DNA of 64,000 nucleotides. It comes from a bacterium (GTDB lineage: Bacteria > Sumerlaeota > Sumerlaeia > SLMS01 > JAHLLQ01). Shown here one piece after another: positions 5,208 through 59,436 of this stretch. The notes under the pieces are model-generated. The model did not search any database. It worked only from the letters and a program-made list of their open reading frames with translations, and was not told the DNA's origin. The translations under genes and the position numbers were made by a program. The DNA lies in contig JAHLLQ010000002.1 of the NCBI GenBank assembly GCA_020444065.1, positions 186,001-250,000 of the forward strand, in the 5' to 3' direction. The first letter of the stretch is position 1. Each line of letters opens with the position of its first letter.

Positions 5208-5317
5208 CGGAAAGTCTCCCCTCTTTCCACGCCCGAAGGCGAATCAATGTTGTTTCCGGATACCAGAAACGGGAACCGAGGCGCAATCCTTTAACCACAC
5301 CTGTTCTTTTGAGAATG

Positions 5318-5359
5318 TAGAACAAAACAAAGACGCTCCGATCAGCAATGATCGGAGCG
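5318..5359 (-). terminator. Terminator of the tRNA-Pro gene
   Basis: Reading the minus strand, a perfect 11-bp stem (5349-5359 with 5334-5344) and a 4-base loop is followed by a run rich in T (TCTTTGTTTTGTTC). It lies 22 bases past the tRNA 3' end. Confidence 0.85.
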
Positions 5360-5381
5360 AAAGATGGGAGCTCTTATTGAA

Positions 5382-5459
5382 TGGTCGGGGTGGCGGGACT
5401 CGAACCCGCGACCTCACGCTCCCGAAGCGTGCGCGCTAGCCAGACTGCGCCACACCCCG
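5382..5459 (-). tRNA. tRNA-Pro (anticodon CGG)
   Basis: On the minus strand a complete cloverleaf can be folded: acceptor CGGGGTG paired with CACCCCG, anticodon stem CACGC/GCGTG around loop TTCGGGA (anticodon CGG, reading codon CCG), and T-arm GCGGG-TTCGAGT-CCCGC. Discriminator A is at 5385 and CCA is encoded at 5382-5384. This gene rules out the N-terminal extension of the pssA reading frame on the other strand. Confidence 0.95.
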
Positions 5460-5594
5460 ACGCGAGGGTCCTTGGGTGCCTCAACCCGCCCCGGCGGTCA
5501 ACGGGAAATTCCGCCAATCCCGGAAAAACCCGATCGCTGCACCCGTGCGCATTCCCCTTTCCACCGCGGCCCGGTTCTCGGTAACACTAAGCCC

Positions 5595-6410
5595 ATGAAG
5601 CGAAGTCCATCCAGACCCGTCTATGTAATCCCCAACCTGCTGACCAGCGCCGCGCTGTTCAGCGGGCTCTGCTCGCTGATCATGGCGTCCCACGGCGAGT
5701 ATATCAGGGCCTGCTACTTGATCCTGCTGGCAGCCGTGCTGGATGGCCTGGATGGACCGGTCGCACGATGGACTCGAACCTCCAGTTCCTTCGGCCTCCA
5801 ATTCGACTCGCTCGCGGATGTGGTCTCATTCGGCGTGGCTCCGGCTTTCCTGATGTACACCAAGCTCCACGCCATCGACGAGGCGATCAGCCTGCCCAAC
5901 TGGGCACCGCGCATGGCCATCGGCGTGAGTACGCTCTACGCCATCACCGGGGCGATCCGCCTGGCGCGTTTCAATGTGCAGGTCGAGGACGAGGAAAAGA
6001 CCCATTTCACCGGCCTTCCGATTCCGGCTGCGGCCGGTACGGTAATTTCCACCTTTCTGGTGATCGAGGTCTACCAACTCCCCGATCGCGCCAGCCTGCA
6101 TCGTGCGATCATGGTACTGATGGTTGTACTTTCCTATCTGATGGTCAGCACCATCCCGTTCCCGAGCCTGAAAGGCATCCATCGCCGTACGCGGCGTTCC
6201 TTTCGCATGCTCGTTACCGTCGTGTTCGCGATCTGGCTGATGATCATGTTCCACCAGCACATCCCCGCCTTTGCCTTCCTGGGCTTCCTGGGTTATCTGA
6301 TCTACTCCCTGACCACCGCTATTCGGACCAAGCGCAGGCTCGCCTCGTTCTCACCCGGCGAGATTCTGACGCCCGTGCCGCTCGACGGGAAGGACGAGGA
6401 CCAGAAGTGA
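5595..6410 (+). CDS. pssA: CDP-diacylglycerol--serine O-phosphatidyltransferase
   Basis: A 271-residue integral membrane enzyme that joins CDP-diacylglycerol and serine to make phosphatidylserine, the precursor of phosphatidylethanolamine. It has the CDP-alcohol phosphatidyltransferase motif DG-x2-AR-x8-G-x3-D-x3-D at residues 53-75 and about six to eight hydrophobic helices. ATG 5595 was chosen because upstream codons run through the tRNA gene. Its stop codon overlaps the GTG start of rsmB. The acidic and basic C-terminal tail (residues 245-271) is cytoplasmic in character. A phosphatidylglycerophosphate synthase is the main alternative, but length and the PNLLTS N-terminus fit the Bacillus-type PssA. 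Confidence 0.88.
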   Translation: MKRSPSRPVYVIPNLLTSAALFSGLCSLIMASHGEYIRACYLILLAAVLDGLDGPVARWTRTSSSFGLQFDSLADVVSFGVAPAFLMYTKLHAIDEAISLPNWAPRMAIGVSTLYAITGAIRLARFNVQVEDEEKTHFTGLPIPAAAGTVISTFLVIEVYQLPDRASLHRAIMVLMVVLSYLMVSTIPFPSLKGIHRRTRRSFRMLVTVVFAIWLMIMFHQHIPAFAFLGFLGYLIYSLTTAIRTKRRLASFSPGEILTPVPLDGKDEDQK

Positions 6411-7801: not shown

Positions 7802-8925
7802 CATCGCCCTTCCAGTTCACCGTTCAAGCCACCGACGGAACGGCCCGCCGTGGCTTGTTCAAAACACCGCACGGAGACGTACAGACGCCGTGCTTCATGC
7901 CCGTGGGAACAAAGGCAACGGTGAAGGCGCTGACGCCTCGCGATTTGCGCGAGATGGGATCGCAGATCATCCTCGCCAACACCTTTCATCTGCATCTCCG
8001 CCCTGGCGAAGATGTCGTGGAAGAACTCGGCGAGTTGCATGGCTTCATGCGTTACGACGGGCCGATCCTGACGGACTCCGGCGGCTTTCAGGTCTTTAGT
8101 CTGGCCGATCTTCGCAAGGTCGACGAGCAGGGCGTCGCATTTCGTTCTCCAATCGACGGCAAACTGATCGAGCTCACGCCCGAGAAAGCCATGGGCATTC
8201 AGCGCAAACTTGGCTCGAACATCTGCATGGCATTCGACGAGTGCCCGACGGCCGTCATGGCGGGGGAGGAGTTACGCCATTCTACCGAGCGCACGTTGCG
8301 CTGGCTGGAACGTTGCCTTTCGGTAGAGCTGAAACCACACCAAACGATCTTCCCGATCGTGCAGGGTGGCATGGAAGCCGACCTGCGCTCTGAGTCCGCA
8401 TCGCGCACAGTGGGACTTGCTTCGGACGCGCGCGGGTTTGCAATTGGCGGCTTGTCGGTCGGCGAAACGCGCGACGTGACCTACCGAATGCTGGAAGTCT
8501 CCGTCGCGGAATTGCCGAAGGATCGTCCGCGTTACATGATGGGCGTTGGCACGCCGGAAGATCTGATTTGGGCGGTCGAACGCGGCGTGGATCTGTTTGA
8601 CTGCGTCCTGCCGTCCCGCAATGCGCGCAATGCGCGCGTCTCTCATCCGGATGGACCGATGAATCTCCGCAACGCGATGTACGCGCGCGATCCGCGTCCG
8701 ATTCAGGAAGATTGCGATTGTCCCGCATGTGCCGGCGGATTCTCTCGCGGCTATCAGCATCATCTGCACAAGCAGAAAGAGATCCTTGCCAGCATCCTGG
8801 CCACGCAACACAACGTGCGTTCATTGCTGCGCATGTGCGAAGAAATGCGTCTCGCCATCGAAGCCGGGGAATGGGCCGACTTCAAGTCACGTTACTTCCG
8901 CGACAAACAGAGCACCCCCAACTGA
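7798..8925 (+). CDS. tgt: tRNA-guanine transglycosylase
   Basis: 375 residues, the length of E. coli Tgt. It exchanges guanine-34 of GUN anticodons for preQ1 in queuosine synthesis. Visible hallmarks are the catalytic aspartates Asp93 (DSGGFQVFS) and Asp268 (DLFDCVLPSRN), and the zinc site Cys306, Cys308, Cys311 with a histidine near 338 (QHN). The GTG start at 7798 overlaps the rsmB stop by GTGA and gives the standard N-terminus FQFTVQATDG. queC and queE, which make the preQ1 precursor, are 10 kb away on the other strand. Confidence 0.95.
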   Translation: MTSPFQFTVQATDGTARRGLFKTPHGDVQTPCFMPVGTKATVKALTPRDLREMGSQIILANTFHLHLRPGEDVVEELGELHGFMRYDGPILTDSGGFQVFSLADLRKVDEQGVAFRSPIDGKLIELTPEKAMGIQRKLGSNICMAFDECPTAVMAGEELRHSTERTLRWLERCLSVELKPHQTIFPIVQGGMEADLRSESASRTVGLASDARGFAIGGLSVGETRDVTYRMLEVSVAELPKDRPRYMMGVGTPEDLIWAVERGVDLFDCVLPSRNARNARVSHPDGPMNLRNAMYARDPRPIQEDCDCPACAGGFSRGYQHHLHKQKEILASILATQHNVRSLLRMCEEMRLAIEAGEWADFKSRYFRDKQSTPN

Positions 8926-37080: not shown

Positions 37081-37494
37081 ATGTCCGATCAATACGGAGG
37101 CGCCCCCGTGCCGCCAGCAAACGTCCCCCCTCAGAAGCCCAAGAGCCCTCCCTGGGGGATTATCATTCTGATCATCGCAATTTGCACCGTCTTCTCCTGC
37201 GTCGTGGGTGGCGGAATCATGGCGGCGATCGCGATTCCGAATTTCAAGGAGGGATATCAGCAGGGCCAGCGAAATGCCTGTCAGAGGAATCTCCTTGAGA
37301 TCGAGTTCGCCAAGCAGAGCTGGGCGGAAGACAATATGGTCGATGATTACTCCGTAGAACCTCCAATCAATGCACTGGTGGGTAGTTATCTGGACGAGAT
37401 GCCGACTTGCCCGGCTGGAGGCACATATACCGTTGGCAACCTGACCGAGTTTCCATCCTGTAGCATCCCCGGGCACGATTTCCCTGAAGAATGA
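37081..37494 (+). CDS. Pilin-like protein with proline-rich cytoplasmic N-terminus
   Basis: 137 residues. Residues 1-25 are Pro-rich; a long hydrophobic helix (26-57) contains the pilin-like GGGIMAAIAIPNFKEG, followed by a Cys-containing soluble domain (NACQRNLLEIEFAKQSWA ... LDEMPTCPAGGTYTVG ... CSIPGH) as in type IV pilin-like proteins of PVC bacteria. The classic prepilin site (Gly-Phe-Thr-Leu-Ile-Glu) is absent and the helix is doubled in length. Follows the glycosyltransferase by 18 bases with AGGAGG ahead of ATG. Confidence 0.72.
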   Translation: MSDQYGGAPVPPANVPPQKPKSPPWGIIILIIAICTVFSCVVGGGIMAAIAIPNFKEGYQQGQRNACQRNLLEIEFAKQSWAEDNMVDDYSVEPPINALVGSYLDEMPTCPAGGTYTVGNLTEFPSCSIPGHDFPEE

Positions 37495-37618: not shown

Positions 37619-40513
37619 TTGCCAGAGCTTGACTGTGAGCCCAGGATGCTGCATATGCAGAAGTCTTTTGAATCCAATACTCTACGAGCCGTTTGTGGGC
37701 TGTTTGCACTGATCGCGGCGAGTATGCTTTTCACGACATCTACCGCGCGCGCTTCGATCGAATTGATCGAAGGCGCCGAGCGGGCCATCCCCGGCAAGGC
37801 ATTCACTGCCGAGCTTCGGTATGACGCGACCGATCGCCTCGCGATGATCGAGCGAAACAAGGATGCCGATTTCCTCTACTTCGAAGGCGAACGGTACGAG
37901 CGTCCCGGTCCTCGGCCCAACGCCATGGCCGAGAGCGCATTGCTGGCGACACCCGGCTACGGGGAGTTCGACGCCAGCCAGTGGCGAGTTTCCGCGCAAG
38001 TCGAGTCCTTTATCGACGGAACGCCCTCGCGTGGCGCGGATGCTTCTGCCGCGGTGACGATCAAGCCGGTCCACATGGGATCTCTCGCCGGAATTCAAGT
38101 CCTGATCGATCCCGACGCGGTCCGCGATGCCTCAGGCAATCTTCGGCGTGCACAGTCCCTCAGAGTTTCTGTCAAGGGGCCGGAAGCGGGCTACTTGAAC
38201 GTCCCGACGTTAACGGCGAAAGAGGCCGAGTCGTCCGCGCGCATCGCGAAGTCGACTTTCCTGAACGGTTCAAGTTTGCACAAATTCCCTGCCCGGTCAC
38301 CGGAGCAGGCCTACCGCTACGGACCGATTATCCCAGACCCGCCGGGGGACTATCGGATCACATACTCCGACGGCGATCGTCTGCTCCGCGTGAACGCCGG
38401 AGACATCGGTACCAGTACATCGGCGGTCGCGGAAGTCGCCCTCCACCACCATGGAAACGGCCTGAAGGTCATGGGTGTACTCGGCGATGATCTTTGGTTC
38501 TACGCACCACGCCGAGTTACGAGGTACGACAAGACAGACTCAGCCTTCGCAAGTGTGAGTACTCCAGATCGCGACCTTGCCCCGGCACGCAGCAGAGACG
38601 CGTTCCAAACGCTTACCCCTCAAGGCACGGAAGTGGAGATGGAACGAAATCGCCGCTACGACGAGAACCTCTATTACGAGCGCCTTCTCAGCACGGAGGA
38701 AGAGCGGTTCGTCTACTATCGTGCCCAGACGGGAACAACTCACACCTTGCAGCTTCTTGTTCCCGACCAGGTCACCTCAGATGCGATCGCTTTCCATTCA
38801 GAGATTTACGGGTACAACGCCAGCAGCGTGACGCCTGATCACTATGCGGACTTCGATCTTGAAGGAACTCAGACTCCGCAGATCTCATGGGAAGGCCGGA
38901 CACTTCAGATTTCCGATTTCGACCTGCAGCTGCCGAGCATCCCAGCCCCAGGTCTCTGGACTCTTGATCATGGCATTCCTGCCGGCTCGCCCTTTGCCAG
39001 CGGCATCGACTACCAGAATCTGGAGGCCATCGAACTGACGTGGACGGGTTACCCTCGCGTCGACAACGGAGAGCGTGGGCGGATCGATTTGCCTGATAGT
39101 GGTGACGGACAACCGCGCAGGATTACCATGGGCGGTTTTCCCGCAGGAAGCACCACCGATGATATCATCATTCTGGATATTACTAGCGAGCAAAGCCCAG
39201 TGCGGGTTCTCAATGCTCCCACATTCCCCGATGGCAGCGGGGGAGTAGCCGTTGAGTTCGAAGCCCCTGCTTTCTCAACCGCGTTCTACTTCGAGCACGT
39301 CGATGCAATCACATCCCCACTGGTTGTGACTCCTGCGGAAGTGATGCCGGACGATTTGCCGGGATCAGGGACGGTTCTGCGGGCAATCTACGTGCGGCCG
39401 GAGATGTTCGATGCGGCACTGCAGACACTGATCGATCATCGCGGTGCCGGCAATATCGTGGAACTCAATCCGCAGGCGGCTTACAACGCTTACAATGGTG
39501 GGCAGGAATCTCCCGAGGCTATCCGGGAGGCACTTCGCGACATCGTGCTACGTCACGAGTATCGCCTGCCGCTCGTGAACGTCTTCCTTGTCGGTCACGC
39601 CAGTCTCGATCCGCGCGACTATCTGGGGACGCAGGTCGAACCCCAGGTTCCCTGCTTCATCGAGTATGGTGTGACGACGTCTTTTGGCGTTCTGGAAAAC
39701 TCAGTCGATTTCACTTACAGTTTGCTGATCGGCGATGACGATATTCCCGACGTGATTTTGGGCCGTTGGCCGGCGAAATCCGTCGCCGACGTCAATCGCG
39801 CTGTGACACGCAATATCAGCCACGACAGCCTGCTGGAAACGCTCCGTGCACAGAATCGCCCCGGATTCTTCATGTGTGACAACGAGGATCAATTCCGGAA
39901 CGACCAGGACCTGTGGCAGGAGCGCTGGGAGCAATCCGGCTTCCCGACGATCCGCATGGACAACTACTCGACGATGACGCTGACCGATTCCCGCGCTCAG
40001 GTTGTGGCCGGTTTCACGCAGCCCGGCGGCGTGACCTATGCCCAGTACATCGGACATGGCAACCTGGACCTGTGGAGCGACCAGTTGATGTCCGTCAGCG
40101 GGCTCAACTCAATCTCCTCGGTCGACACCAGCAGCCAGTGGCCGATCGTCGGCGTCTATACCTGCCTGAACGGTTACTACGCCTACCCGGGATCGTCGAC
40201 GCTCTCGATGGCGGAGGCCTGGCTGTTCGATTCCGACTACGGCGCGGTGGCCAATGTTGCCCCATGTGGCGTGGATTACTACTTCGAGCAGCGCCTGTTT
40301 GCCCTGACCGTCATCGACATCTGGGGCCAGCCCGACTCGACGCGGCCTCGGACGATCGGTGAGACCGTGACCGCCGCGCAGATCAACTACGCAACCTGGT
40401 ATCCCTTCTTCAAGCTGACGAACCACGAATACATCCTGTTCGGCGATCCGCAGACCAACACGGCCATGGATCCGCCGATCGTATCGGGAGTCGAGGAATG
40501 GCGCCTATGGTAG
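37619..40513 (+). CDS. Secreted C25 (gingipain-family) cysteine peptidase
   Basis: 964 residues from TTG 37619 (GGAGGG 10 bases upstream); ATG 37646 or 37655 are alternatives. A Sec signal has its core at about residues 24-45 (ends TARA). Beta-rich N-terminal half; the C25 catalytic domain occupies about 600-955. The histidine-cysteine pair is His813 (YIGHGN) and Cys849 (VYTCLNG), and NVFLVGHASLDPRDY is typical. The end (YILFGDPQTN) matches the family; no T9SS sorting domain follows. Gingipain relatives cut after Arg or Lys. Its last 16 bases overlap the S26-PqqD gene, which suggests a link to the peptide cluster. Confidence 0.85.
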   Translation: MPELDCEPRMLHMQKSFESNTLRAVCGLFALIAASMLFTTSTARASIELIEGAERAIPGKAFTAELRYDATDRLAMIERNKDADFLYFEGERYERPGPRPNAMAESALLATPGYGEFDASQWRVSAQVESFIDGTPSRGADASAAVTIKPVHMGSLAGIQVLIDPDAVRDASGNLRRAQSLRVSVKGPEAGYLNVPTLTAKEAESSARIAKSTFLNGSSLHKFPARSPEQAYRYGPIIPDPPGDYRITYSDGDRLLRVNAGDIGTSTSAVAEVALHHHGNGLKVMGVLGDDLWFYAPRRVTRYDKTDSAFASVSTPDRDLAPARSRDAFQTLTPQGTEVEMERNRRYDENLYYERLLSTEEERFVYYRAQTGTTHTLQLLVPDQVTSDAIAFHSEIYGYNASSVTPDHYADFDLEGTQTPQISWEGRTLQISDFDLQLPSIPAPGLWTLDHGIPAGSPFASGIDYQNLEAIELTWTGYPRVDNGERGRIDLPDSGDGQPRRITMGGFPAGSTTDDIIILDITSEQSPVRVLNAPTFPDGSGGVAVEFEAPAFSTAFYFEHVDAITSPLVVTPAEVMPDDLPGSGTVLRAIYVRPEMFDAALQTLIDHRGAGNIVELNPQAAYNAYNGGQESPEAIREALRDIVLRHEYRLPLVNVFLVGHASLDPRDYLGTQVEPQVPCFIEYGVTTSFGVLENSVDFTYSLLIGDDDIPDVILGRWPAKSVADVNRAVTRNISHDSLLETLRAQNRPGFFMCDNEDQFRNDQDLWQERWEQSGFPTIRMDNYSTMTLTDSRAQVVAGFTQPGGVTYAQYIGHGNLDLWSDQLMSVSGLNSISSVDTSSQWPIVGVYTCLNGYYAYPGSSTLSMAEAWLFDSDYGAVANVAPCGVDYYFEQRLFALTVIDIWGQPDSTRPRTIGETVTAAQINYATWYPFFKLTNHEYILFGDPQTNTAMDPPIVSGVEEWRLW

Positions 40514-41202
40514 TGCGCCCGGTTGTTGGAGTCAGCATGACGCCCGTGCTGCGGCCCGGGCAGTGGGTGCTGGTGCGTCCTCCTGCGTCGCACCAGCACG
40601 TGCGCCGCGGTGACATCGTGGCCATGAAGACCGAAAGCGGCGAATTCGTTTTACACCGGTTTTTGCGCTCGTTGCCCGACGATCGCTTCCTTACCCGCGG
40701 CGATCACTCCGGCGTTCAGGACCAGCCGTGGCGCTGGGATCAGCTCGAAGGAGTCCTTCTCCTGGCCCGTTTTGGCCAGGATTGGCGGCGCCCCCGGCGG
40801 TCTACCGGTGTTCTGATGGCCTGGCTGAGTGGGGCCCGCCCAAGAAGGTTTTTCTCACCGATTCAGCAGTTTTTCGGAAAATTCTGTTGGCAAGCCACCC
40901 CCGTGTTGGGTTCAAATCGCGTCACGGGAATTGCTCATCCTCTCCGCGCTGATGATTCCGGGCGTTGGGAGAAGCAACAACTCGGCGAAGAATTGGCCGT
41001 GTATGACTCGAAGACGGGTTCCGTTCACGTCCTGAATCGGGTAGCCGGAATCATCTGGGAAGCAACCAGAGAAGGAAAAAGCCCGGAAGAAGTCTTAGTT
41101 CTTCTGCAGGCACAATTCCCGCAAGTGGATGGCGAGAGTCTGAAAACAGACTTGGATCGTACACTTGATGAACTGAAAACTCTCGAACTATTACCTCAAT
41201 AG
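40498..41202 (+). CDS. S26B-type signal peptidase-like domain fused to a PqqD domain
   Basis: 234 residues, no transmembrane helix. The N-terminal half has the signature of the Ser-His type S26 peptidases (archaeal and ER signal peptidase): Ser13 in VGVSMTPVLRPG, RRGDIVAM, His53 in FVLHRFL, and TRGDHSGVQD (Asp69, Asp75). The C-terminal 80 residues are a PqqD-like winged helix (YDSKTGSVHVLNRVAGIIWEA ... DLDRTLDELKTLELL), the leader-binding module of RiPP enzymes. The pairing suggests it holds and cuts the precursor encoded 32 bases downstream. It overlaps the C25 gene; GGAG lies before ATG 40498; ATG 40507 is possible. Confidence 0.78.
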   Translation: MAPMVVRPVVGVSMTPVLRPGQWVLVRPPASHQHVRRGDIVAMKTESGEFVLHRFLRSLPDDRFLTRGDHSGVQDQPWRWDQLEGVLLLARFGQDWRRPRRSTGVLMAWLSGARPRRFFSPIQQFFGKFCWQATPVLGSNRVTGIAHPLRADDSGRWEKQQLGEELAVYDSKTGSVHVLNRVAGIIWEATREGKSPEEVLVLLQAQFPQVDGESLKTDLDRTLDELKTLELLPQ

Positions 41203-41234
41203 TCGATTAACGCGCAAAATGGGAGTAAACACAA

Positions 41235-41411
41235 ATGACCGACAAGACCGACAAGAACACGGCCGCTGAAGTTCGTATCTACGAAGCGCCCCGCATTGTC
41301 AGCCACTCCGCCGAAGGCCTGCAGAAGGTCTCCTTGGCGATGAACGCCTGCACGGGCTTCTCGCGTTCGCGTGACGACGACGGCGACGACAAGTCGACGA
41401 CCACGTACTAA
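41235..41411 (+). CDS. Candidate RiPP precursor peptide (58 aa)
   Basis: A 58-codon ORF with GGGAG 8 bases upstream of ATG 41235. The peptide has a leader-like N-terminal half (EVRIYEAPRIVSHSAEGLQ) and a core-like end: ACTGFSRSR (single Cys39), then DDDGDD and KSTTTY. The Tyr-x2-Pro and His-Ser-x-Glu-x-Leu pattern resembles leaders recognised by PqqD domains. Its TAA shares a base with the ATG of the kinase-like gene (TAATG). Flanking PqqD, S26-like and radical SAM genes support the role. Which residues are changed is unknown. Confidence 0.72.
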   Translation: MTDKTDKNTAAEVRIYEAPRIVSHSAEGLQKVSLAMNACTGFSRSRDDDGDDKSTTTY

Positions 41412-42520
41412 TGCCGTCACTTCGCTTCCAGGCTTCGGGCCTGGGGGTGTGCATCGAAGCCGCCCCGGCGGTCCTCGAAACCCTGGAAGCGATCTACCGG
41501 CTGTTCCCTTCATCGGCTCAAGATGATGTCTTCATCCACATCTCGTGGAAAGACCTCACAGCCAAATGGAACACCGGTGACCGCCGCAGCGGGATTGTTC
41601 GAGTAATCGATCCCGCCTTTCGGCCACAAATAACAACGATCTTGATCGCGCGCCTGCTCGCAGAGAGCAGGCCCGATCTCTTTTTACTGCATGGCAATTC
41701 CCTTCTGACCAATGACGGAAGACCCCTCTTCCTATTGGGAGACAGCGGGGTTGGGAAGACGACCCTGACGCGCAGTCTGCTCGATGCGAATCCCGAGTGG
41801 CGGTTCCTGGCCGAAGACACGATCATGATCGATGCCCCCAACGGATGCGCTCTGCCATTCCCGCGCGCTGCTGCTCTGCGAAATGCCAGCGCCGGAGCCA
41901 CGATTTCCTGGGGGCCGATCGGTGCACCGGGGCCGGCCAAGCTGCTTGAATCGCCCGCGACTAATCGACTCGTTGCCGAGGCCCAATCGCTTGAGGGCGG
42001 AGAGTTCATCTTGCTTGAACGCGAACAAGCCGACCAAGCGGAACGAACGGAATCGAAATCCGGCGAACATCCCGAGCTCGTCTGGGCGACTTACGCGGAC
42101 GATGCCGCCGAAACCTCCATCCGCGAGGCCGGACTTCCTCTGGAAAGAATGCGCATCGCCGACGGCGTGGTGTGCATGTGCTTTGCAGAACCCCTCCTTG
42201 TGGATGCGCGGCTTCGCCTCGAGGAAATCCTCGAAGCCAGTGGCGCGGTGATCCTTCAGATTGAATCGATTCAGGAGGCAAAGGCCTGGTCGGGAGAACG
42301 CCCAGCAAGCCCGGAACTGCAGAGCCTCACCCCTTCCGAAGGGATCCACCGGATGCTCAAGCATCTTCGCCGACAGACCCTTCGTCAGACGGCGCAAGCG
42401 CCCGGCCTTGTCTTCATCCGCCTGGCGCAGGCAGTCGGCGAGTGTCGCTTTCACTTGCTCGTCCCGGGTGGGACGCCGGAAAACACACGCCAGACTTTGG
42501 AGCAGGCACTCTTCGCGTGA
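41411..42520 (+). CDS. HprK-like kinase of a RiPP-type locus
   Basis: 369 residues. It has the P-loop GDSGVGKTT (110-118) in the sequence HGNSLLTNDGRPLFLLGDSG, the arrangement of the C-terminal domain of HPr kinase/phosphorylase and of HprK-related kinases found next to PqqD-like proteins. RFLAEDTIMI holds the likely Walker B acidic pair. The HprK signature for HPr binding is not obvious, so the target is probably another protein or the precursor. Starts on the last base of the precursor stop; its stop overlaps the next GTG (GTGA). Confidence 0.8.
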   Translation: MPSLRFQASGLGVCIEAAPAVLETLEAIYRLFPSSAQDDVFIHISWKDLTAKWNTGDRRSGIVRVIDPAFRPQITTILIARLLAESRPDLFLLHGNSLLTNDGRPLFLLGDSGVGKTTLTRSLLDANPEWRFLAEDTIMIDAPNGCALPFPRAAALRNASAGATISWGPIGAPGPAKLLESPATNRLVAEAQSLEGGEFILLEREQADQAERTESKSGEHPELVWATYADDAAETSIREAGLPLERMRIADGVVCMCFAEPLLVDARLRLEEILEASGAVILQIESIQEAKAWSGERPASPELQSLTPSEGIHRMLKHLRRQTLRQTAQAPGLVFIRLAQAVGECRFHLLVPGGTPENTRQTLEQALFA

Positions 42521-43830
42521 CGACCACCACAACACCGGACTTCCCCCCAGTAGGTGCCCTTCGTGGCGCCGAGCGCCAGCGTGTCTTGAAACTGGCGGGA
42601 TTGCTGACTCGCCCAGCTTTGGAAGAGCGCCATATTCGCGCAGCAGAGCGGTTGATCGGTGCGCCGGATTGGCAACCTATCCCCCGTTTGATCATGCTGC
42701 ACGCGATAGAGCCGTTGTTCCGTCACCACGCAGCCGCACTCGGGGTCGCGCCGGATCGTCTCGTAGACTTGAGCGATACACGCTACCTTCCGGAGGCGAT
42801 GGGATTTCGGGCGATCGCGACGCGTCACTATCGACGACGTGAAGTTCTGCTCCAAGTCCTGAAGGCCCTCCATTCGCAGGGCGTTTCGCGCCCTATGCTC
42901 ATCAAGGGAGCAGCCCTTGCGCCGCTCTATTCCTCGCCTGCCTTGCGCGAGATGAGTGACATCGACCTGGTCGTCGATCCGAGCGACGAGCCTCGGGTGA
43001 CGCGTGCGTTCGAATCCGCCGGCTGGAAGGGTGGTCCGGCCACTTGGAGCCACGACACCGGCCTGACGGCCGACATTCAAATTCCTCGCCCCGGAATCGG
43101 GCGGGAAACCTGGCGTCGACGCGAATCGCACCCCATCTATGGCGAACGTTTCGGGATTTGTACTCCGCGAGCTTCCGATCACATCGTTCTGACGGCTGTC
43201 CATGCCGCCCAGCACAGCGGAACGCGCCTCTGGCGGGACATCTGTGATCTTCAGTTGTTGCTCGAAAACGGCAGACGGGCTGATCTGGCGGCCGAGGCGC
43301 TCGAGCATGCGGCCGCTCACGGTGCTGCCCCAGCCGTCGCGGCGATCTTCCGCATCATGAATCGCTGGACTGCCCCTCTTACGCGCCTTCCGGAGCGCTC
43401 TGAGGACTGGACATCCGCCCAGGAGGTGGCCTGCAAGTTGCATTGTCGCCTATATCGCGAACTGGCGGCGGATAGGGTCTCCAACGCGGCCTTGGAAATG
43501 GCGACAACGTTCGCTCTGCCGTTCCCGCTGCTGGTCGCCGGCGCAGGCGGAGTGGTACTGCGGAAGTTGTCGGATGTTCTGTCCCTGAACGGCGTCAGTC
43601 GTTCTTCCCAGGAGCCGTCTGAGCGGGATCCAGTGATGGGCGATTTGCCCGCGGCCGGTTCGCTCAAACGCCAGGTTCTCAAACTCCGGCTGTTGGCTTA
43701 CCTGGCGAGGAGCGGAGAGGGGCGGAGATACTGGAAGATTCTCCGAATGCGTCCACGCGTTGCCCTGAAAGCGCGACCCTTCGAGCCACTGAAACTCGCA
43801 ACGTCTGAGGATACGAAGCCCCCGATATGA
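42517..43830 (+). CDS. Nucleotidyltransferase-like protein of a RiPP-type locus
   Basis: 437 residues. The central part has MLIKGAALAPLY and MSDIDLVVDP (Asp148, Asp150), the marks of the nucleotidyltransferase family (NTP_transf_5-like) often seen in lasso- and PqqD-linked peptide clusters. HIVLTAVHAAQHSGTRLWRDICDL (about 227-250) is typical of the C-terminal region. It could transfer a nucleotide to the precursor or another cluster protein. The GTG start overlaps the kinase-like gene; its stop overlaps the radical SAM start (ATGA). Confidence 0.78.
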   Translation: MTTTTTPDFPPVGALRGAERQRVLKLAGLLTRPALEERHIRAAERLIGAPDWQPIPRLIMLHAIEPLFRHHAAALGVAPDRLVDLSDTRYLPEAMGFRAIATRHYRRREVLLQVLKALHSQGVSRPMLIKGAALAPLYSSPALREMSDIDLVVDPSDEPRVTRAFESAGWKGGPATWSHDTGLTADIQIPRPGIGRETWRRRESHPIYGERFGICTPRASDHIVLTAVHAAQHSGTRLWRDICDLQLLLENGRRADLAAEALEHAAAHGAAPAVAAIFRIMNRWTAPLTRLPERSEDWTSAQEVACKLHCRLYRELAADRVSNAALEMATTFALPFPLLVAGAGGVVLRKLSDVLSLNGVSRSSQEPSERDPVMGDLPAAGSLKRQVLKLRLLAYLARSGEGRRYWKILRMRPRVALKARPFEPLKLATSEDTKPPI

Positions 43831-45248
43831 ACGAAACCCCGGTCATGGAGCCCTTTGCCCCCGCTGATACTTGGTGTCCAAAGGTCCATCCCGATCTGAT
43901 TGTCGATCGAGAGGGAGCGCCCGACTACATCCTGCTGCATCCGAAGGAAGCTCGGTGGGCGTTGACCAATGAGACCGGCCTTTTTCTAGCCGGCCAGTTC
44001 GACGGATCGGTTTCGATTGGAGCGGCCGCGGAGAATCTGGCTGAGCAGTATGTGGGGACGGAGATCGAGGCGATCCTCGGCGATGTGCGCACGTTCGTCG
44101 ATCGGCTGCACGAGTCGAATCTCCTGCAGAACGCGCCTGTTGCGCCACCACCGTTGCCGAAGAAGCAGCGTCCTCCCGACATCACAATCTACCTGACAGA
44201 GCAGTGCAATCTGCGCTGCAAGCACTGCGCCGTCGTTGAGGGAAAGATGCCTTCGGACAAGCTGACAACCGAGGACATCAAGGACCTGATCGCGCAGCAT
44301 TGCGAGCGCTACGAAAACCCAACGGTCTCGTTCACCGGTGGCGAAACATTCCTGCGCCGAGACTGCATGGAGGTGCTCGAATTTGCCTCGAAGCAGTCCA
44401 AATTCGTCAATGTGAACACAAACGGCCTTCTGATCGACCGCGAGATGGCCCAAAAGCTGGCCGCCCTGGACGTCTGGGTGCAGGTCAGTCTGGACGGTGC
44501 CGATCCCGAGGTTCACGATTTCATTCGCGGGAAGGGCACCTTCGACCGTGCCTGGCAGACGGTCGAGTGGCTCTGCGAATTCGGCGGTGCCCAGAAGGTC
44601 CTGATTGCCACCACGTTGACGCGATCCGTTCTGCCCCAGGTGATAGAGCTCATCGAACGGGCGGACGCATTGAATTTGCGCAATCTGCGCTTCCTGACGC
44701 TCAATAAGCTCAAGGCTGCCGTGACGAATTGGGACAGGATCGCCCCCGATGGGGACGAAATGCTCAAGACCTACCGCTATCTGCTGTTGGAACTGCCGCA
44801 GATGGACAGGGATGGAAAGACCGAGATCAGCGGCAGTTTCCCGGGCTTTGTGCCTGATGCAGACCCCCGTGGCGGACCCTGGTGCCCCCTTGGCAAGACC
44901 ATGATCGTGGACTCCCAGGGAGACACCTATAACTGCCCAACGCTGAGGGGAGAGGACTTCCGCACAGGAAACATCCGTCAAAATACGTTGGAAGAGATCG
45001 AGGCCGGCGATCGGAACAAGGCCCTGCGCGAGCAGATGTTGAACCGGCGTTTTGTCATAGAAGAATGCTGCGATTGCCCCTGGCGTAACTTTTGCCAAGG
45101 TGGATGCGAAGCATTCACGTTCCTACGGACTAACTCGTTGTATGTGAATGATGAATTTTGCGATTTCCGGCGCGATTTGTACCGTGCCCATGTAAAACTC
45201 CAGGCCCTTGGCAGAATAGCCAATATGGACAGAGAAAGCATCTGCTGA
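43827..45248 (+). CDS. Radical SAM/SPASM peptide-modifying enzyme with N-terminal PqqD domain
   Basis: 473 residues. Residues 20-102 form a PqqD-like leader-binding domain (DYILLHPKEARWALTNETG ... VRTFVDRLHESNLL). The radical SAM core carries Cys127, Cys131 and Cys134 (CNLRCKHC) and FTGGETFLR. A SPASM region (from about 350) has seven or more cysteines, including CPLGKTM, YNCPTLRG, ECCDCPWRNFCQGGC and a last Cys near 443, for two extra [4Fe-4S] clusters. Such enzymes make thioether, C-C or epimer changes in ribosomal peptides. It ends the tightly overlapping gene run. Confidence 0.9.
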   Translation: MNETPVMEPFAPADTWCPKVHPDLIVDREGAPDYILLHPKEARWALTNETGLFLAGQFDGSVSIGAAAENLAEQYVGTEIEAILGDVRTFVDRLHESNLLQNAPVAPPPLPKKQRPPDITIYLTEQCNLRCKHCAVVEGKMPSDKLTTEDIKDLIAQHCERYENPTVSFTGGETFLRRDCMEVLEFASKQSKFVNVNTNGLLIDREMAQKLAALDVWVQVSLDGADPEVHDFIRGKGTFDRAWQTVEWLCEFGGAQKVLIATTLTRSVLPQVIELIERADALNLRNLRFLTLNKLKAAVTNWDRIAPDGDEMLKTYRYLLLELPQMDRDGKTEISGSFPGFVPDADPRGGPWCPLGKTMIVDSQGDTYNCPTLRGEDFRTGNIRQNTLEEIEAGDRNKALREQMLNRRFVIEECCDCPWRNFCQGGCEAFTFLRTNSLYVNDEFCDFRRDLYRAHVKLQALGRIANMDRESIC

Positions 45249-45426
45249 TTGTGACACGAAAAAGGAACTGGAAGCCGGACAAAAACCCTTGCATGGGGAA
45301 CTGGCTTCGAGGACCCTTGGACTAAGTTAGGCACAAAGTGGAATGCTTTCACTGAGTCGGGCCGGAACGATTTCGCATGTTTTGGAAACAGAATCCAGCT
45401 CACTATCACTAAAGGTACGCATCCAA

Positions 45427-46233
45427 ATGAGAAAATTGCTTCTTGCCGCTACGATCTTTGCCCTGTGCTCCACCGGTTTTGCGTCCGATCGCGCCGCAAT
45501 GGCCGAGTCCACAGGATCTTACTCCATCGACCGGGACGGCACCGTCCTTTCCGCTCGGGAGAATACGCTGACCGAAGTGCGCACCGGCGACCTGCTTCTT
45601 GCCGGTGAGAAGCCCGTTCGTGTTGAAACAGCCAAGGGCGAAACAATCCTGGTTGGCCAGAACTCCCAGGCCAGCTTCAAGGACGCCGGCCATGTCGTTC
45701 TGACCGAAGGCACCGTCGCACTGGCGACTCCCGGCGACTCGACGCTGGCCGCTTCCTATAGCGACCTCCTCTTCGAGTCGATCTCCGGCGAAGGCGCTGA
45801 TCGTCACATGCTGCTGATCCAGGTCGAGAACTCGAATGAAGTCATGGCTCAGAGCCTGAGCGAGACCTTCGCGGTTCGCTCCGCCACGACCGGCGAGCAG
45901 ATCGCTGTCATCGGCGCCGGCGACGACCTGATCTTCAAGCACGTCGGGGACACATGGATGGTCAACGCTCGCACTGTTGGTCAGCCGGGCACCGATGGCC
46001 AGATCGAGGGTGGCTCCGAAGCGGCCCAGGACGAAGTTGCCCAGGATGAAGACGATCGCCGCAAGGCCGGCTTCTGGATCCTCGGTGGAACGCTGGGTGC
46101 CGCGGCTGCTGGTGGCGCTGGCTACTGGATCTACGAAGATCTGATCAAGGAAGGCCCGGACGGCGGTGGCGATAACGGCCGCAACCCGTCCAGCCCGATC
46201 GCACCTCCCTACACGCCGCCTCCGTCTAAGTAA
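45427..46233 (+). CDS. FecR-like exported or membrane protein
   Basis: 268 residues. Sec signal to about residue 22. Residues 30-110 follow the FecR fold (GTVLSARENTLTEVRTGDLLL ... VETAKGETILVGQNSQASF), with GTVALATP repeated strands. An acidic linker precedes a second hydrophobic helix (about 223-240, GFWILGGTLGAAAAGGAGY) and a Pro-rich tail. FecR proteins usually sense or anchor envelope components. It follows the RiPP cluster by 178 bases on the same strand and has its own terminator, so a link is only positional. Confidence 0.72.
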   Translation: MRKLLLAATIFALCSTGFASDRAAMAESTGSYSIDRDGTVLSARENTLTEVRTGDLLLAGEKPVRVETAKGETILVGQNSQASFKDAGHVVLTEGTVALATPGDSTLAASYSDLLFESISGEGADRHMLLIQVENSNEVMAQSLSETFAVRSATTGEQIAVIGAGDDLIFKHVGDTWMVNARTVGQPGTDGQIEGGSEAAQDEVAQDEDDRRKAGFWILGGTLGAAAAGGAGYWIYEDLIKEGPDGGGDNGRNPSSPIAPPYTPPPSK

Positions 46234-46260: not shown

Positions 46261-46298
46261 CTCGCCGGCAACACTGCGTTGCCGGCGAGTTTTCTATT
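46261..46298 (+). terminator. Terminator of the FecR-like gene
   Basis: A perfect 12-bp stem (46261-46272 with 46278-46289), 5-base loop, then TTTTCTATTT. Confidence 0.92.
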
Positions 46299-54159: not shown

Positions 54160-56376
54160 ATGAGCAGTCAGGATCCGTATTCAGACGCCAGGAAAAAGAT
54201 GGAGCTGTTGATCAAGCTCGAAGAGGCGACGACTCCTGAAGGCGCCGGACGGGGACGAGGCGGCGTTGGACCTCGTGGTGAATCTGCGACCCGAATCGGC
54301 AAGCCCGGAGCGATCCGAGGCGACGCGCAACGACGGACCAGCACCGGCACCTGGCAGCAACAGGCGGGTGTGCCGACGGATCCGGACGAAGAAGCCGCTC
54401 GCATTGGTCAAGGCCCGGCCCCTTCGCCCGCACAGTTCACGTCCGGCGAATTCGATATCGCCACGGAACTGAGCGAAGGCGATATGGTGCGCGCGCTGAC
54501 AGAGAAGGTCGGCCTTCCCTACGCGGACATTGGCGACTTCGAACTCGATGGCGAAGAAGGCGAACGCGTTCGCAGTTACATCCCATCGCAAACGGCACGC
54601 GAGCGGCGCATCTATCCGCTGAAGGAAGAAACGAAACCCGGACGTCGCCCCGTCCTGACAGTCGCTATCAGCGACCCGCTGAATATCACCATCGTCGACG
54701 ATTTGCGTCTCCTTCTCCCCGAACACGACATCGAAGCCGTCGTCATCAACGAGGACGACATCGTGGAAGCGATCGACCGGTTCTACGGCGTCGGCGATGA
54801 GACGCTCGACAACGTCATTGACTCGCTTGGCGAAGAAGAGGATGACGAAGATTCCGGACTCTTGTCCTCGGGCAATGAGTTAGAAATCGATCTTGAGAAG
54901 TTGGCTAACGATCCGCCCGTCATCAAGCTGGTGAACTTGCTCTTGATCCAGGCGATTCAGGACCGCGCATCCGACTTGCACATCGAGCCCTTCGCCGGCT
55001 CACTGCGCATTCGCTATCGTGTTGACGGTGTGTTGCGCGAAATCCCTTCGCCTCCAAAGAGCCTCCAGCTTGGACTGATCAGCCGCCTGAAGGTCATGGG
55101 TGGCATGAACATCTCGGAAACACGCGCGCCCCAGGACGGTCGTATCCGAATTTCAATCTCAGGCAAGGAAGTCGACTTGCGTTGTTCCTCCGTTCCGACG
55201 GTGTACGGCGAATCGCTCGTGATGCGTATTCTCGACAAGAGCACGATGATGATCGGCATTCGCCAGCTCGGGTTCCAGAAGGAACCGCTCGAGATGGTTC
55301 TCGATTCCGCCCACAAGCCGAATGGCATTCTGCTCGTCACCGGTCCGACCGGCTGCGGCAAGACGACGACCCTCTATTCCGTCCTGAACGAAGTTTTTGA
55401 CTCCGGCTTGAAGTTCATCACGACCGAGGATCCGGTCGAGTATGAGCTGCCCGGCGTTGTGCAGGTTAACATCAACGCGAAGGTGAACCTGACTTTCGCG
55501 GCGTGCCTCCGCAGTATCCTGCGACAGGACCCCGACGTGATTCTCGTCGGCGAGATTCGTGACGTTGAGACGGCTGAAATCTCCATCCAGGCGGCTCTGA
55601 CGGGCCACATGGTGTTCTCGACGCTTCACACGAACTCCTCAGCCGCCACGCTGACCCGCCTGATCGACATGGGCATCGAACCCTTCCTGCTGACCTCGAC
55701 GCTGCGTTGCGTCGTTGGCCAGCGCCTGATCCGTACAATTTGTCCCATGTGCAAGGAGCCCTACATCCCGACGGACGAGGAACTTGAAGAGTTCGCCGTC
55801 ACCCGCGAAGAGGTTCAGGACATCACCTTCTTTGCCGGCCGCGGCTGCGACGATTGCAACTTCAGCGGCTACAAGGGTCGTCTTGGTCTCTTCGAAGTCA
55901 TGACGATCACCGAAGAACTCCGCGAACTGATCCTGCAGCGCGCAACAACCGACGAAATCCACGCTCTGGCCGTTCACCAGGGAATGCAGACGATGCGCAG
56001 CGATGGTTGGCTGAAGGTTTGCCTCGGCGCTACGACCTTTGAGGAAGTCGGTCGCCAGACTCCGCGCGAAAGCGAAGAGTCGGCACGTCTCGAAGCCATG
56101 TCCGCCAAGCGGTCGCTGGCACGCATCGAGGAAGCCCGCCGCAAGCGCGAAGCGGAAGACCGCATCGACGAAGAGGGAGAGGATTACCAGGAGTTTGGAA
56201 TCCCGGAGGTCGTCGAGGAAGAAGTGCCACAGCAGCTTGCGGAAGAGCCCTTGGTCGAGGAGCCGATCGCTCAGGAGCCCGACTCCGACGACGAATTGAT
56301 GCCCCCGCCGATGCTCGGTCTCGAGCCAACCGAGCCGAAAGAGGAGCCCGGTGGCGAGGACGCCACGAGAGTTTGA
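54160..56376 (+). CDS. Type II secretion/type IV pilus assembly ATPase
   Basis: 738 residues. A low-complexity N-terminus (20-90), an MshEN domain (about 100-220), then the GspE/PilB core: Walker A GPTGCGKTTT (from 395), an Asp box (ITTEDPVEYELPG), Walker B with DPDVILVGEIRD, and a His box (GHMVFSTLHTN). A zinc tetracysteine uses Cys528, Cys531, Cys563 and Cys566. It drives pilin or pseudopilin assembly. A 130-residue acidic tail is unusual. It is not beside other secretion genes; the secretin-like protein and three pilin-like proteins are scattered in the window. Confidence 0.93.
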   Translation: MSSQDPYSDARKKMELLIKLEEATTPEGAGRGRGGVGPRGESATRIGKPGAIRGDAQRRTSTGTWQQQAGVPTDPDEEAARIGQGPAPSPAQFTSGEFDIATELSEGDMVRALTEKVGLPYADIGDFELDGEEGERVRSYIPSQTARERRIYPLKEETKPGRRPVLTVAISDPLNITIVDDLRLLLPEHDIEAVVINEDDIVEAIDRFYGVGDETLDNVIDSLGEEEDDEDSGLLSSGNELEIDLEKLANDPPVIKLVNLLLIQAIQDRASDLHIEPFAGSLRIRYRVDGVLREIPSPPKSLQLGLISRLKVMGGMNISETRAPQDGRIRISISGKEVDLRCSSVPTVYGESLVMRILDKSTMMIGIRQLGFQKEPLEMVLDSAHKPNGILLVTGPTGCGKTTTLYSVLNEVFDSGLKFITTEDPVEYELPGVVQVNINAKVNLTFAACLRSILRQDPDVILVGEIRDVETAEISIQAALTGHMVFSTLHTNSSAATLTRLIDMGIEPFLLTSTLRCVVGQRLIRTICPMCKEPYIPTDEELEEFAVTREEVQDITFFAGRGCDDCNFSGYKGRLGLFEVMTITEELRELILQRATTDEIHALAVHQGMQTMRSDGWLKVCLGATTFEEVGRQTPRESEESARLEAMSAKRSLARIEEARRKREAEDRIDEEGEDYQEFGIPEVVEEEVPQQLAEEPLVEEPIAQEPDSDDELMPPPMLGLEPTEPKEEPGGEDATRV

Positions 56377-56611: not shown

Positions 56612-57319
56612 ATGGGACAGGCTTCCACAGCGAACAGGAATCTCGGCGAGATCCTGCTGCGCGAAGGGCTGATTAACGAAGAGCAGTTCAATCAGGGCAT
56701 GCGTGAGTATGAACTGAGCGAGCGGCCCCTGTCGCGTATCTTCGTCGAAATGGGCGCCATTACAGAGGGCGTCAAGATCGGCGTCCTGCAGAAGCGCTGC
56801 GATTGCGAGCTCGTTAGCCTGCGCGATCTATCGCCCCGAATTGACGCCGTCCAACTTGTCCCACGCCCTCTGTGTGAAAAGCACCACCTCGTGCCTCTGA
56901 AGACCGATAAAGGACGCCTCCTCGTTGCGATGGAGGATCCCACGGATATGCGCGCTCTACGCGCCCTGGAGACCGTTTCGGGTATGCCGATCGCCCCGCT
57001 GCTGGCAAAGTCCGCAGAGATTCAAGATGTCATCAGTGGGCTCCCTGAGGATAAGGAGATCGGCGAGACCGCCCCCGCCCACGGGCTTTTCTATAAGATC
57101 GCAAAGGCTGTCACTCTTCCAATCATCTGGGGGTTGCCAGTGGGCATCTTCGTCTACGCGATCTACTACGTGGAAGGCATCAGTGACATCTGGAAGGAAA
57201 TGGACTTCGATTCCTTCGAGCGCGTGCTGTTCTTCCTGCTCGCCTGGAGCGCCTGGGCGATCGTCGCCTATTGGATCAACGACATCATTTTCGGTACCAG
57301 CTCTGAACAAGAGGCTTGA
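56612..57319 (+). CDS. Short MshEN-domain membrane protein
   Basis: 235 residues. Residues 8-155 are an MshEN domain (NLGEILLREGLINEEQFNQGM ... HHLVPLKTDKGRLLVAMEDPTD), here the last soluble part of the protein; two hydrophobic helices follow (LPIIWGLPVGIFVYAIYY and VLFFLLAWSAWAIVAYW). No ATPase motif. If this MshEN binds cyclic di-GMP, the protein could report it at the membrane. It lies after the pilB-like gene on the same strand, with a terminator between. Confidence 0.75.
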   Translation: MGQASTANRNLGEILLREGLINEEQFNQGMREYELSERPLSRIFVEMGAITEGVKIGVLQKRCDCELVSLRDLSPRIDAVQLVPRPLCEKHHLVPLKTDKGRLLVAMEDPTDMRALRALETVSGMPIAPLLAKSAEIQDVISGLPEDKEIGETAPAHGLFYKIAKAVTLPIIWGLPVGIFVYAIYYVEGISDIWKEMDFDSFERVLFFLLAWSAWAIVAYWINDIIFGTSSEQEA

Positions 57320-57386
57320 TCGCTCTCGGCCCGGGCGGAAACACTGGCGGGGCAGGATTGGACGCTCCCTGCATCGGAGGAATATC

Positions 57387-57899
57387 GTGCGCGCCCCGGC
57401 TGTACAGCACCACCGCTCAAATTCCCTCACCGCCACTTCGCTTTCGAGCGTGGCCAGGCTGATTTGCATTGTCATCGTGGGATTGTCCCTCTCGGGATGT
57501 GGTATCCTTTCCCGAAACAGCGATGCGATTCCCCCGAATGCGGCAAAGATTCTGGTGCGCTATCAATGGACTGCTGCGGATGAGAAGACCCCGCCCGTGG
57601 CGTTCCACGTGTACCGCGCCGATGATGCCATCGGGCCGTTCGAATGCCTGACCTCCAATCCCATCAAGACCGGCAGCCACAAAGCCGGTGAGACGTTCAT
57701 CGTCTTGAAGGATGTCGGGGTTGAGATGGGCCAGACCTACTACTACTACCTGGAACGTGTTACCCCGAGTGGCGAGCGCGCGAAGTGGACATCGGTGACG
57801 TCCGCAACGGCGCTGCTTCCGCTGGAGCCGGCGGATCACAGGGAGTATGGGAAATTGCAGGACGTGCAGCGAAAGAAGCAGCGCGGCAAGGACTCCTAA
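57387..57899 (+). CDS. Lipoprotein with fibronectin-III-like domain
   Basis: 170 residues from GTG 57387, which follows GGAGG at ideal spacing. A lipobox (LSGC, Cys38) ends the signal region. The body (50-150) has a beta-sandwich pattern ending GQTYYYYLERVTPSGERAKWTSV, as in fibronectin type III domains. Function unknown. The next gene starts 37 bases later. Confidence 0.75.
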   Translation: MRAPAVQHHRSNSLTATSLSSVARLICIVIVGLSLSGCGILSRNSDAIPPNAAKILVRYQWTAADEKTPPVAFHVYRADDAIGPFECLTSNPIKTGSHKAGETFIVLKDVGVEMGQTYYYYLERVTPSGERAKWTSVTSATALLPLEPADHREYGKLQDVQRKKQRGKDS

Positions 57900-57936
57900 C
57901 CTTCTCCCGATCCATCCGGTCAGATCAGCCGGAGAG

Positions 57937-59436
57937 ATGATGATGACTATGACGACTCGATTCACCCGCTTCCTGATGGCAATACTGGCTCTGGCCCTGG
58001 TCGCTTCGACACCCATCGTCGTGCATGCTCAGGTGATGGACCAGAAGACGCGGGAGGAACGCATCAAGGAGCACGAAGAACGCGTCCGCAAGATCATCGA
58101 GGAACGCCGCCAGCAGCGACTGGAGCAGGAGCGTCAGCGTCAGTTGGAAGAAGTCGAGAATCGCGGCCAGCCGCAGCCGGACCAGCCGAAGCCCGAGGAA
58201 CAACAGGCTGAAGAGCCCGCACAGGAAGAACCGCGTTTCGGCACCGTTCTGCTCTATGTCCTCTTCTACGAGGCAGACACGGATACCATGGAACTGGATA
58301 CGGTAGTGACCGAAGGCGATCGCTTCCTTTCGGAAGTTCGTCTTCAGAACGACAACTCTGTTCCATTCGACCGTGTTCGCCTGGCGCTCAAATACGACAA
58401 GCGCTTCATCAAGCCGCTGCGCGTCTTCGACGACGAACTGCGGCCATTTCTCCAGGGCGATCCGATCTTCAAGGTTAATCAGCGCGATAGCATTCTGATT
58501 TACGATGCGAGGTTCAAGGCGCCGCGTTTTACCAAGCAGGTACCGGTGCTCAAGATCGTCTGGGAAGCGATTCGTCCAACCGAACACACGGGTTTGGATT
58601 TCGAGTTCGCTTCCGGGGAAACCGAGCAGGCTATTCACACCGGCGTTTATCAATCCGACCGCAATATCCTCGGCGACGAATCCGATCCCCTCGATGGGGT
58701 CCTTGGCGGCTCTGTGCTTGTGATGCGCAAGCCGTCGGACAATGCGCTGAGCTCGAAGACGGAGATTCTGCAGGGCAAGAAGGAAGAGCTGCGCGAGCTC
58801 TACCTTGGCAGCGTCGGCGCGAACCAGCAGGCCGGCATTGCACTTGAGGGGCCGAGCAAACCGATTGTCGTCGGCGAGACTTTTGATGTCGACGTCGTCT
58901 TGAATAATCCCGATGGGGCGATCATCGACACACTACGCTTCTTCATCCATTTCAATCCCGACCTCCTGGAAGTCGTCGATTCAGACAAAGGCAATTGGAT
59001 CAAGCGTGGCATCAACGTTCTCGACGGTCCCTTCCGCAGCGACTACCCGTTCGATTTCCACAAGCGCAACGAAGCGGACAACGTGCGCGGCCTGATCAAC
59101 TACTCGATGGCCCTTGGCGACAGTCTCGCGCTGCCGACAGGGACTTTCGCGCGGATTCGTTTCCGCGCACGCCAGCCAATCGAGGATACGACCATCAGCC
59201 TGATTCGCACGCGTCAGGGGGCCGGCGCATTGACGGCGATCCAGAACTTCGGTTTTGACCTGTTCACGCCGGACCCGGAACTCAGCGTGCCGGACATCAC
59301 GGTCGCCATTTCTGCGGAGCCGATGGACGCGGAGGTTGCATCCGCCGGCGAAGGCGAAGTTGCCCCGGAAGAGCCCGTCGATCCCTCGCAGGCCAGCGGC
59401 ATGGAATTCCAAAGCATGATCCCTGGCGCTCGCTGA
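57937..59436 (+). CDS. Exported protein with cohesin-like domain
   Basis: 499 residues from ATG 57937; GGAGAG sits immediately before it, so 57943 or 57949 may be the true start. Sec signal to about residue 31 (VVHAQ). A charged coiled-coil (35-80) and a Pro/Gln/Glu-rich linker precede two beta-sandwich regions; the second (about 310-440) contains GETFDVDVVLNNPDGAIIDTL and NPDLLEVVDSDKG, the cohesin pattern used in protein docking. The C-terminus is acidic. No dockerin was seen in the window. Confidence 0.75.
   Translation: MMMTMTTRFTRFLMAILALALVASTPIVVHAQVMDQKTREERIKEHEERVRKIIEERRQQRLEQERQRQLEEVENRGQPQPDQPKPEEQQAEEPAQEEPRFGTVLLYVLFYEADTDTMELDTVVTEGDRFLSEVRLQNDNSVPFDRVRLALKYDKRFIKPLRVFDDELRPFLQGDPIFKVNQRDSILIYDARFKAPRFTKQVPVLKIVWEAIRPTEHTGLDFEFASGETEQAIHTGVYQSDRNILGDESDPLDGVLGGSVLVMRKPSDNALSSKTEILQGKKEELRELYLGSVGANQQAGIALEGPSKPIVVGETFDVDVVLNNPDGAIIDTLRFFIHFNPDLLEVVDSDKGNWIKRGINVLDGPFRSDYPFDFHKRNEADNVRGLINYSMALGDSLALPTGTFARIRFRARQPIEDTTISLIRTRQGAGALTAIQNFGFDLFTPDPELSVPDITVAISAEPMDAEVASAGEGEVAPEEPVDPSQASGMEFQSMIPGAR

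Follow-up and report, generated by a model that had tools for sequence, protein, structure and literature searches.

A candidate RiPP-type maturation operon with a PqqD-fused signal peptidase-type protein in Sumerlaeota, possibly serving surface proteins

The 64,000-nucleotide stretch analysed here (the window) belongs to the 5.2 Mb genome of a Sumerlaeota bacterium (G000) and contains five adjacent genes on the plus strand, which code for an S26-type peptidase fused to a PqqD domain (S26-PqqD), a 58-residue peptide, an HprK-like kinase, an NTP_transf_5 nucleotidyltransferase-like protein and a PqqD-radical SAM-SPASM enzyme (Table 1). The five open reading frames (ORFs) lie in the places and on the strand where an initial annotation, made from the sequence alone, had put them, and the overlaps that it read at the last three junctions (TAATG, GTGA and ATGA) are exact. 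The extent that it gave to the group, 40498-45248, does hold the five genes but is too narrow at both sides, leaving out two likely members, the gene of a secreted C25 (gingipain/PorU-like) cysteine protease upstream and that of a FecR-like exported protein downstream. The C25 gene overlaps the start of the S26-PqqD gene by 16 nt, a position that is conserved, and the FecR-like gene is followed by a strong terminator-like hairpin; no other terminator-like site was found on the plus strand between position 37159 and this hairpin. Because of this arrangement, the transcription unit likely spans about 37.65-46.29 kb and ends at the hairpin, and the gene overlaps together with the lone downstream terminator are consistent with single transcription. 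A promoter scan found no promoter.

Table 1. Coordinates of the operon and of its flanking features, counted from the first nucleotide of the window.
Feature	Position	Strand	Evidence
Secreted C25 (gingipain/PorU-like) cysteine protease	37619..40513	+	PF01364, 134 bits
S26 (SEC11-type) domain fused to PqqD/RRE	40498..41202	+	Pfam/NCBIfam; RRE at about 40966-41199
58-residue precursor peptide (predicted)	41235..41411	+	Conserved in the order and three other phyla; purifying selection
Leader segment Tyr16-Ala38 (YEAPRIVSHSAEGLQKVSLAMNA)	41280..41348	+	YxxPxI anchor; M-N-A ahead of the predicted cut
Predicted core peptide C39-Y58 (CTGFSRSRDDDGDDKSTTTY)	41349..41408	+	Conserved Cys; cut position predicted
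HprK-like kinase	41411..42520	+	P-loop GDSGVGKTTL, ED and PFPR motifs
NTP_transf_5 nucleotidyltransferase-like protein, GTG start	42517..43830	+	PF14907, 82.9 bits
PqqD-radical SAM-SPASM enzyme	43827..45248	+	Pfam/NCBIfam domains
FecR-like exported protein (longest possible ORF begins at 45343)	45427..46233	+	Homologues after the radical SAM gene in L021 and L022
Terminator-like hairpin, 12 bp GC-rich stem and T tract	46261..46289	+	Terminator scan

The 58-residue peptide matched no Pfam or NCBIfam family. The order of the window is represented in the data set by 12 genomes of two families (many genomes are fragmented, and outside the phylum mostly one genome per family was sampled), and, besides the window's own genome, nine of them have a homologous small ORF directly 5' of the kinase gene. 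A small ORF between the S26-PqqD and kinase genes, whose conservation the initial annotation had proposed to check, is therefore conserved in place. A peptide profile found matches in 10 of the 12 genomes and nothing convincing in the remaining genomes of the phylum, and no second copy was found in the genome of the window. The small ORF is more than a chance reading frame: besides its conservation in place, the peptide is under purifying selection in close pairs, in which synonymous changes dominate, mostly at third codon positions, with ratios of non-synonymous to synonymous change (dN/dS) of about 0.05 and 0.33. Tyr and Pro are invariant in the alignment and are followed by N-[AG]-C. In 25 of 25 peptides inspected (those of the order, second copies and those of other phyla) the Tyr or Trp of a YxxPx[VIL] motif stands 23 residues ahead of the Cys (Ser in two), without gaps, and the residues at -3 and -1 before it are always M/V/I/L/A/S and A/G/S, respectively, giving the tripeptides MNA, VNA, INA, ANA, LNG, VQA, AQA, SLS, SIS, VLA and ILA. 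This [VIAMLS]-x-[AGS] pattern before Cys follows the rule for signal peptidases, and an enzyme with the signal peptidase fold is encoded in the operon itself. A lipoprotein reading of the V-N-A-C motif was rejected, because the preceding segment is hydrophilic and contains no hydrophobic signal.

The Cys is conserved except in two paralogous peptides of G002 and G004, encoded at loci without the radical SAM gene, which have lost Cys1 of the core and the aromatic residue and have kept the -3/-1 residues, Ser3 and an acidic tail ending in Tyr. These paralogues would separate cutting from cross-linking and would argue against a C-terminal reaction of the mycofactocin type, although they are suggestive only, as they represent one evolutionary event. 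A mycofactocin-like chemistry on a C-terminal Val-Tyr was in fact rejected, because Tyr persists without the radical SAM enzyme and is missing elsewhere.

The initial annotation described the first of its five genes as an S26B-type peptidase fused to PqqD; the fusion stands, and the peptidase can be specified as a SEC11-type S26. The protein contains S24/S26 and PqqD domains and just passes the TIGR04353 model (36 bits for a cutoff of 35). Its S26 part finds its best alignment in human SEC11A/C, onto whose catalytic residues the invariant Ser13-His53-Asp75 aligns, and for its PqqD part alignments were obtained with two lasso leader-binding proteins, TfuB1 and TbiB1. An AlphaFold model (mean pLDDT, the predicted local distance difference test score, of 75) shows two confident domains and a poor linker, and a structure search with this model ranked TbiB1-leader complexes at the top, followed by signal peptidases. 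In a small tree of low resolution, the S26-fused PqqD groups with free-standing PqqD proteins, at a distance from the PqqD of the radical SAM enzymes. SEC11 and SipW (S26B) share with it the Ser-His-Asp triad and the fold, and their -3/-1 rule fits the predicted cut; unlike them, the protein of the window has no membrane anchor (no transmembrane segment was predicted from hydropathy) and is fused to a RiPP recognition element (RRE; RiPP, ribosomally synthesized and post-translationally modified peptide). S26-PqqD could thus be a cytoplasmic leader peptidase, which would cut before Cys39 and free a core with an N-terminal Cys.

Pfam PqqD scores above its cutoff in two proteins, S26-PqqD and the radical SAM enzyme. 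The latter combines PqqD, Radical_SAM and SPASM domains with invariant CxxxCxxC and SPASM cysteines; its nearest solved structure is CteB (5wgg) and its top NCBIfam match the mycofactocin radical SAM family (TIGR03962, 142 bits against a cutoff of 265). The L-H-x-N, P-loop, E-D and P-x-P-R motifs of the kinase and the KG...DxD motif of the NTP_transf_5 protein are also invariant. The C25 protease probably starts at ATG 37655 and has a hydrophobic N-terminus, predicted to be a signal peptide; its predicted catalytic residues, His813 (GHG) and Cys849 (C-x-N-G), align with the gingipain R motifs and are invariant in three relatives. Within the phylum, matches to this type of C25 protein with E<1e-70 are confined to the order that carries the system, and its adjacency in the order and in two other phyla led to the rejection of C25 as a chance neighbour. 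The FecR-like protein matched no Pfam family; its gene or a homologue directly follows the radical SAM gene in three genomes, in family f1 only; these proteins (in the window, at 552-1469 of L021 and at 4076-4984 of L022) are exported, poorly conserved and end in a hydrophobic Gly/Ala-rich C-terminus.

Relatives of the kinase (E of 7e-84 or better in the order, 2e-15 outside) led to nine further loci, each of which was inspected. The full order C25 - S26-PqqD - peptide - HprK - NTP_transf_5 - radical SAM is found in L021 and L024, is interrupted by contig ends in L022 and L029, and is altered or rearranged in the others. L023 (G005) lacks NTP_transf_5 between HprK and the radical SAM gene, and a second peptide-NTP_transf_5 pair is located elsewhere (L103); the peptide locus of G007 has a stand-alone PqqD; and the radical SAM gene of G008 is 45 kb distant. 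The system is split in G002 and G004, one locus containing the peptide, HprK and radical SAM genes (also NTP_transf_5 in G002) and the second one C25-S26-PqqD-peptide-NTP_transf_5, without radical SAM.

With the radical SAM profile, matches with E below 1e-70 were obtained in six genomes, which belong to three other phyla. Their clusters comprise PqqD, peptide, a 573-residue protein, radical SAM, HprK, C25 and S26 (G080); PqqD, radical SAM, HprK and C25 in the three f48 genomes (G072, G217 and G351), with S26 in two of them (the contig of G351 ends); peptide, radical SAM and HprK (G225); and PqqD, peptide, a 408-residue protein and radical SAM (G175). C25 and S26 are present in two of the three phyla. 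From these clusters, C25 and S26 are regular members of the system, and the PqqD-S26 fusion is a trait of the order of the window. NTP_transf_5, which is missing from the radical SAM clusters of the other phyla, is dispensable. Matches in Nitrospira were discarded as distant radical SAM proteins only.

The initial annotation interpreted these genes as a RiPP-type operon, and the small ORF conserved in place, the YxxPx[VIL] leader, which resembles those that lasso B1/PqqD domains bind, and the presence of the same type of peptide with PqqD, radical SAM and HprK elsewhere support this interpretation. Two features of RRE-dependent RiPP systems, a conserved precursor gene adjoining tailoring genes and a PqqD-like RRE, are found together here. 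We assign a probability of about 0.62 to a RiPP-type maturation operon working as a whole in the following way. The two PqqD domains would grip the precursor through YxxPx[VIL], and the kinase and the nucleotidyltransferase would decorate a Ser or Thr of the core, probably at position 2 or 3, as BsfK, paeninodin and pseudomycoidin suggest through their analogy; in lasso systems, HprK homologues phosphorylate a Ser of the leader-bound core with the help of an RRE (PMC10368454; PMC8498205). The radical SAM-SPASM enzyme would join Cys1 of the core to a residue close by (in most cases a Phe or Tyr at 4-5, or else a second Cys), which is proposed because the enzyme is nearest to CteB, a thioether former, and because Cys1 and the aromatic residue are lost where the enzyme is absent. 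The cytoplasmic S26-PqqD would then cut at the signal-peptidase-type site, measured from the bound anchor, yielding a core with a modified N-terminal Cys, and the secreted C25 protease could act on the exported core or on its associated secreted proteins; given the secreted neighbours of the f48 peptides (below), the system may serve surface proteins. Of this model, the sequence itself shows the gene set, its conservation, the intact catalytic residues, the domain relationships, the constant spacing and the -3/-1 pattern, and the binding, cut site, sequence of steps, chemistry, export and C25 role are proposals. If true, RiPP leaders would here be removed in a new way, by a signal peptidase fused to an RRE, release before Cys39 being the sharpest prediction, and the set would direct a kinase, a nucleotidyltransferase, a radical SAM enzyme and two unrelated proteases at one short peptide.

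Several observations weigh against this model. No transporter gene was found in or adjoining the operon, the kinase is a P-loop protein that matches HprK_rel_A (TIGR04352) only weakly (32.9 bits for a cutoff of 200), and NTP_transf_5 is missing from the clusters of the other phyla, as noted. The aromatic residue at core position 4 is missing in G080 and G175, the link between the losses of Cys and of the radical SAM gene comes from a single pair of orthologous paralogues, and the conservation of Ala at -1 might have another cause.

A different role for the peptide is suggested by its genomic neighbours in phylum f48. Its genomes each contain one maturation cluster and, according to the peptide profile, as many as five peptide copies, whose CTGFGG..C cores hardly vary. 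All these peptides (12/12) are encoded within about 2.5 kb of a gene for a protein with an FN3C domain, a proximity whose probability by chance, in a simple calculation that takes no account of duplication, is about 1e-14 to 1e-20. The partners are mostly exported and of varied type (beta-helix, papain-type, C25-propeptide), with the C-terminal FN3C domain, whose model (pLDDT 96) shows a fibronectin type III fold, common to all. The modified peptide could therefore be a tag, anchor or cofactor of secreted proteins, with C25 as the sortase or processing protease that joins it to the FN3C proteins or activates them. Neighbouring FN3C genes also occur at the system loci of G080, G175, G225 and G007 and next to C25 paralogues in G007 and G009, and the f48 C25 aligns with PorU of the type IX secretion system over 700 residues. 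In its most developed form, this explanation would have many peptides of near-identical core, each beside a secreted protein, served by one shared PqqD/radical SAM/kinase/S26 cluster and by a PorU-like C25 sortase joining or acting on the partner, the operon of the window being a compact one-peptide version whose leader peptidase and recognition domain form a single protein. We consider the tag or anchor role unlikely, and its developed form similarly doubtful. FN3C is present in 15/16 genomes with the system and in 66/370 others (counts uncorrected for kinship); it is thus enriched and not specific, and the idea that it strictly marks the system was rejected, since it is widespread without it. 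The operon of the window has no FN3C neighbour, and f1 loci have in its stead the FecR-like gene; a conserved sorting motif at the C-terminus was not seen; and, despite the catalytic His and Cys shared with PorU and gingipains, the C25 proteins stay below the cutoff of 420 bits of the PorU model NF033707 (59.9 bits in the window, 257.5 bits in f48) and are here coupled to a RiPP-type operon. Nevertheless, the link in f48 between peptides, a PorU-like protease and secreted families raises the question of whether some such peptides are parts of surface proteins and not free natural products. As for FN3C elsewhere, a weak match lies at 56925-57899 of the window and adjoins a cohesin-domain protein (the two together at 56925-59436), the gene of a type II secretion ATPase (54160-56376) being close by, and in L192 (5021-9958) and L194 (2841-7788), from G007 and G009, an FN3C gene 80 nt upstream of the C25 paralogue forms a separate two-gene unit.

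A pathway for a peptide-derived cofactor, similar to those of PQQ or mycofactocin, would agree with the top NCBIfam match of the radical SAM enzyme, the final Tyr of the f1 peptides and the lack of an exporter, but is very improbable, since the match is well under its cutoff and loci without radical SAM retain the C-terminal Tyr, which is absent in f2 and in other phyla. Still less credible is a relative of lasso peptides, phosphorylated and glycosylated like pseudomycoidin and lasso-folded: the clusters of paeninodin, pseudomycoidin and Bradymonas bsf share the YxxPxL-type leader, the PqqD/B1 RRE, the HprK-like kinase and the nucleotidyltransferase, but the window set adds radical SAM, S26 and C25, neither an asparagine-synthetase-type cyclase nor a B2 protease was found in the operon or the ten flanking genes scanned, the core starts with Cys, is often only 6 residues long and has no ring acceptor at 7-9, and the spacing from anchor to cut is 23, not 17 (leader motif at -17 to -12). 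A defence system was rejected, as PADLOC yielded a generic radical SAM (viperin) match only.

Among other known systems, the HPr-rel-A one (TIGR04352/TIGR04353) shares the PqqD, which passes TIGR04353 in the window, and differs in that the window kinase falls under the TIGR04352 cutoff and that the S26 fusion, radical SAM and C25 are extra. CteB, SkfB, StsB and MftC (maturases of sactipeptides or ranthipeptides and of mycofactocin) have the same RRE, radical SAM and SPASM architecture, whereas the enzyme of the window reaches no equivalog cutoff, its precursor is unmodelled and it is accompanied by the kinase, nucleotidyltransferase and S26. The initial annotation found the gene combination with a PqqD-fused signal peptidase unfamiliar, and no match was found in the open-licence papers on HPr-rel-A, C25 plus radical SAM, and S26 plus RiPP. 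Related sets are present in four bacterial phyla, and none of the described systems that could be found matches them.

Other loci contain parts of the system. In another family of the class, L117 of G020 (4474-6400) has PqqD, radical SAM and a separate S26 adjacent to each other, and no YxxP...AC peptide was found there. L116 of G036 (4004-4614) and L107 of G226 (8100-8479) are sibling clusters that combine PqqD and an HprK-like kinase with YxxP peptides whose cores differ (for example ...YEPPKVEMVVDSESLERETLFAGVQTPG); one of the clusters adjoins a large radical SAM-like protein; both would be further unmodelled RiPP-type systems. Finally, at L106, L108 and L109 (from G176 and G086) an HprK-like kinase, accompanied by PqqD, NTP_transf_5 or both, adjoins small proteins in which a Y-x-x-P segment comes after a twin-arginine-like N-terminus (for example RRRFLKTGLVGIGLLPYVAPLVQSVALS), an odd type of precursor.

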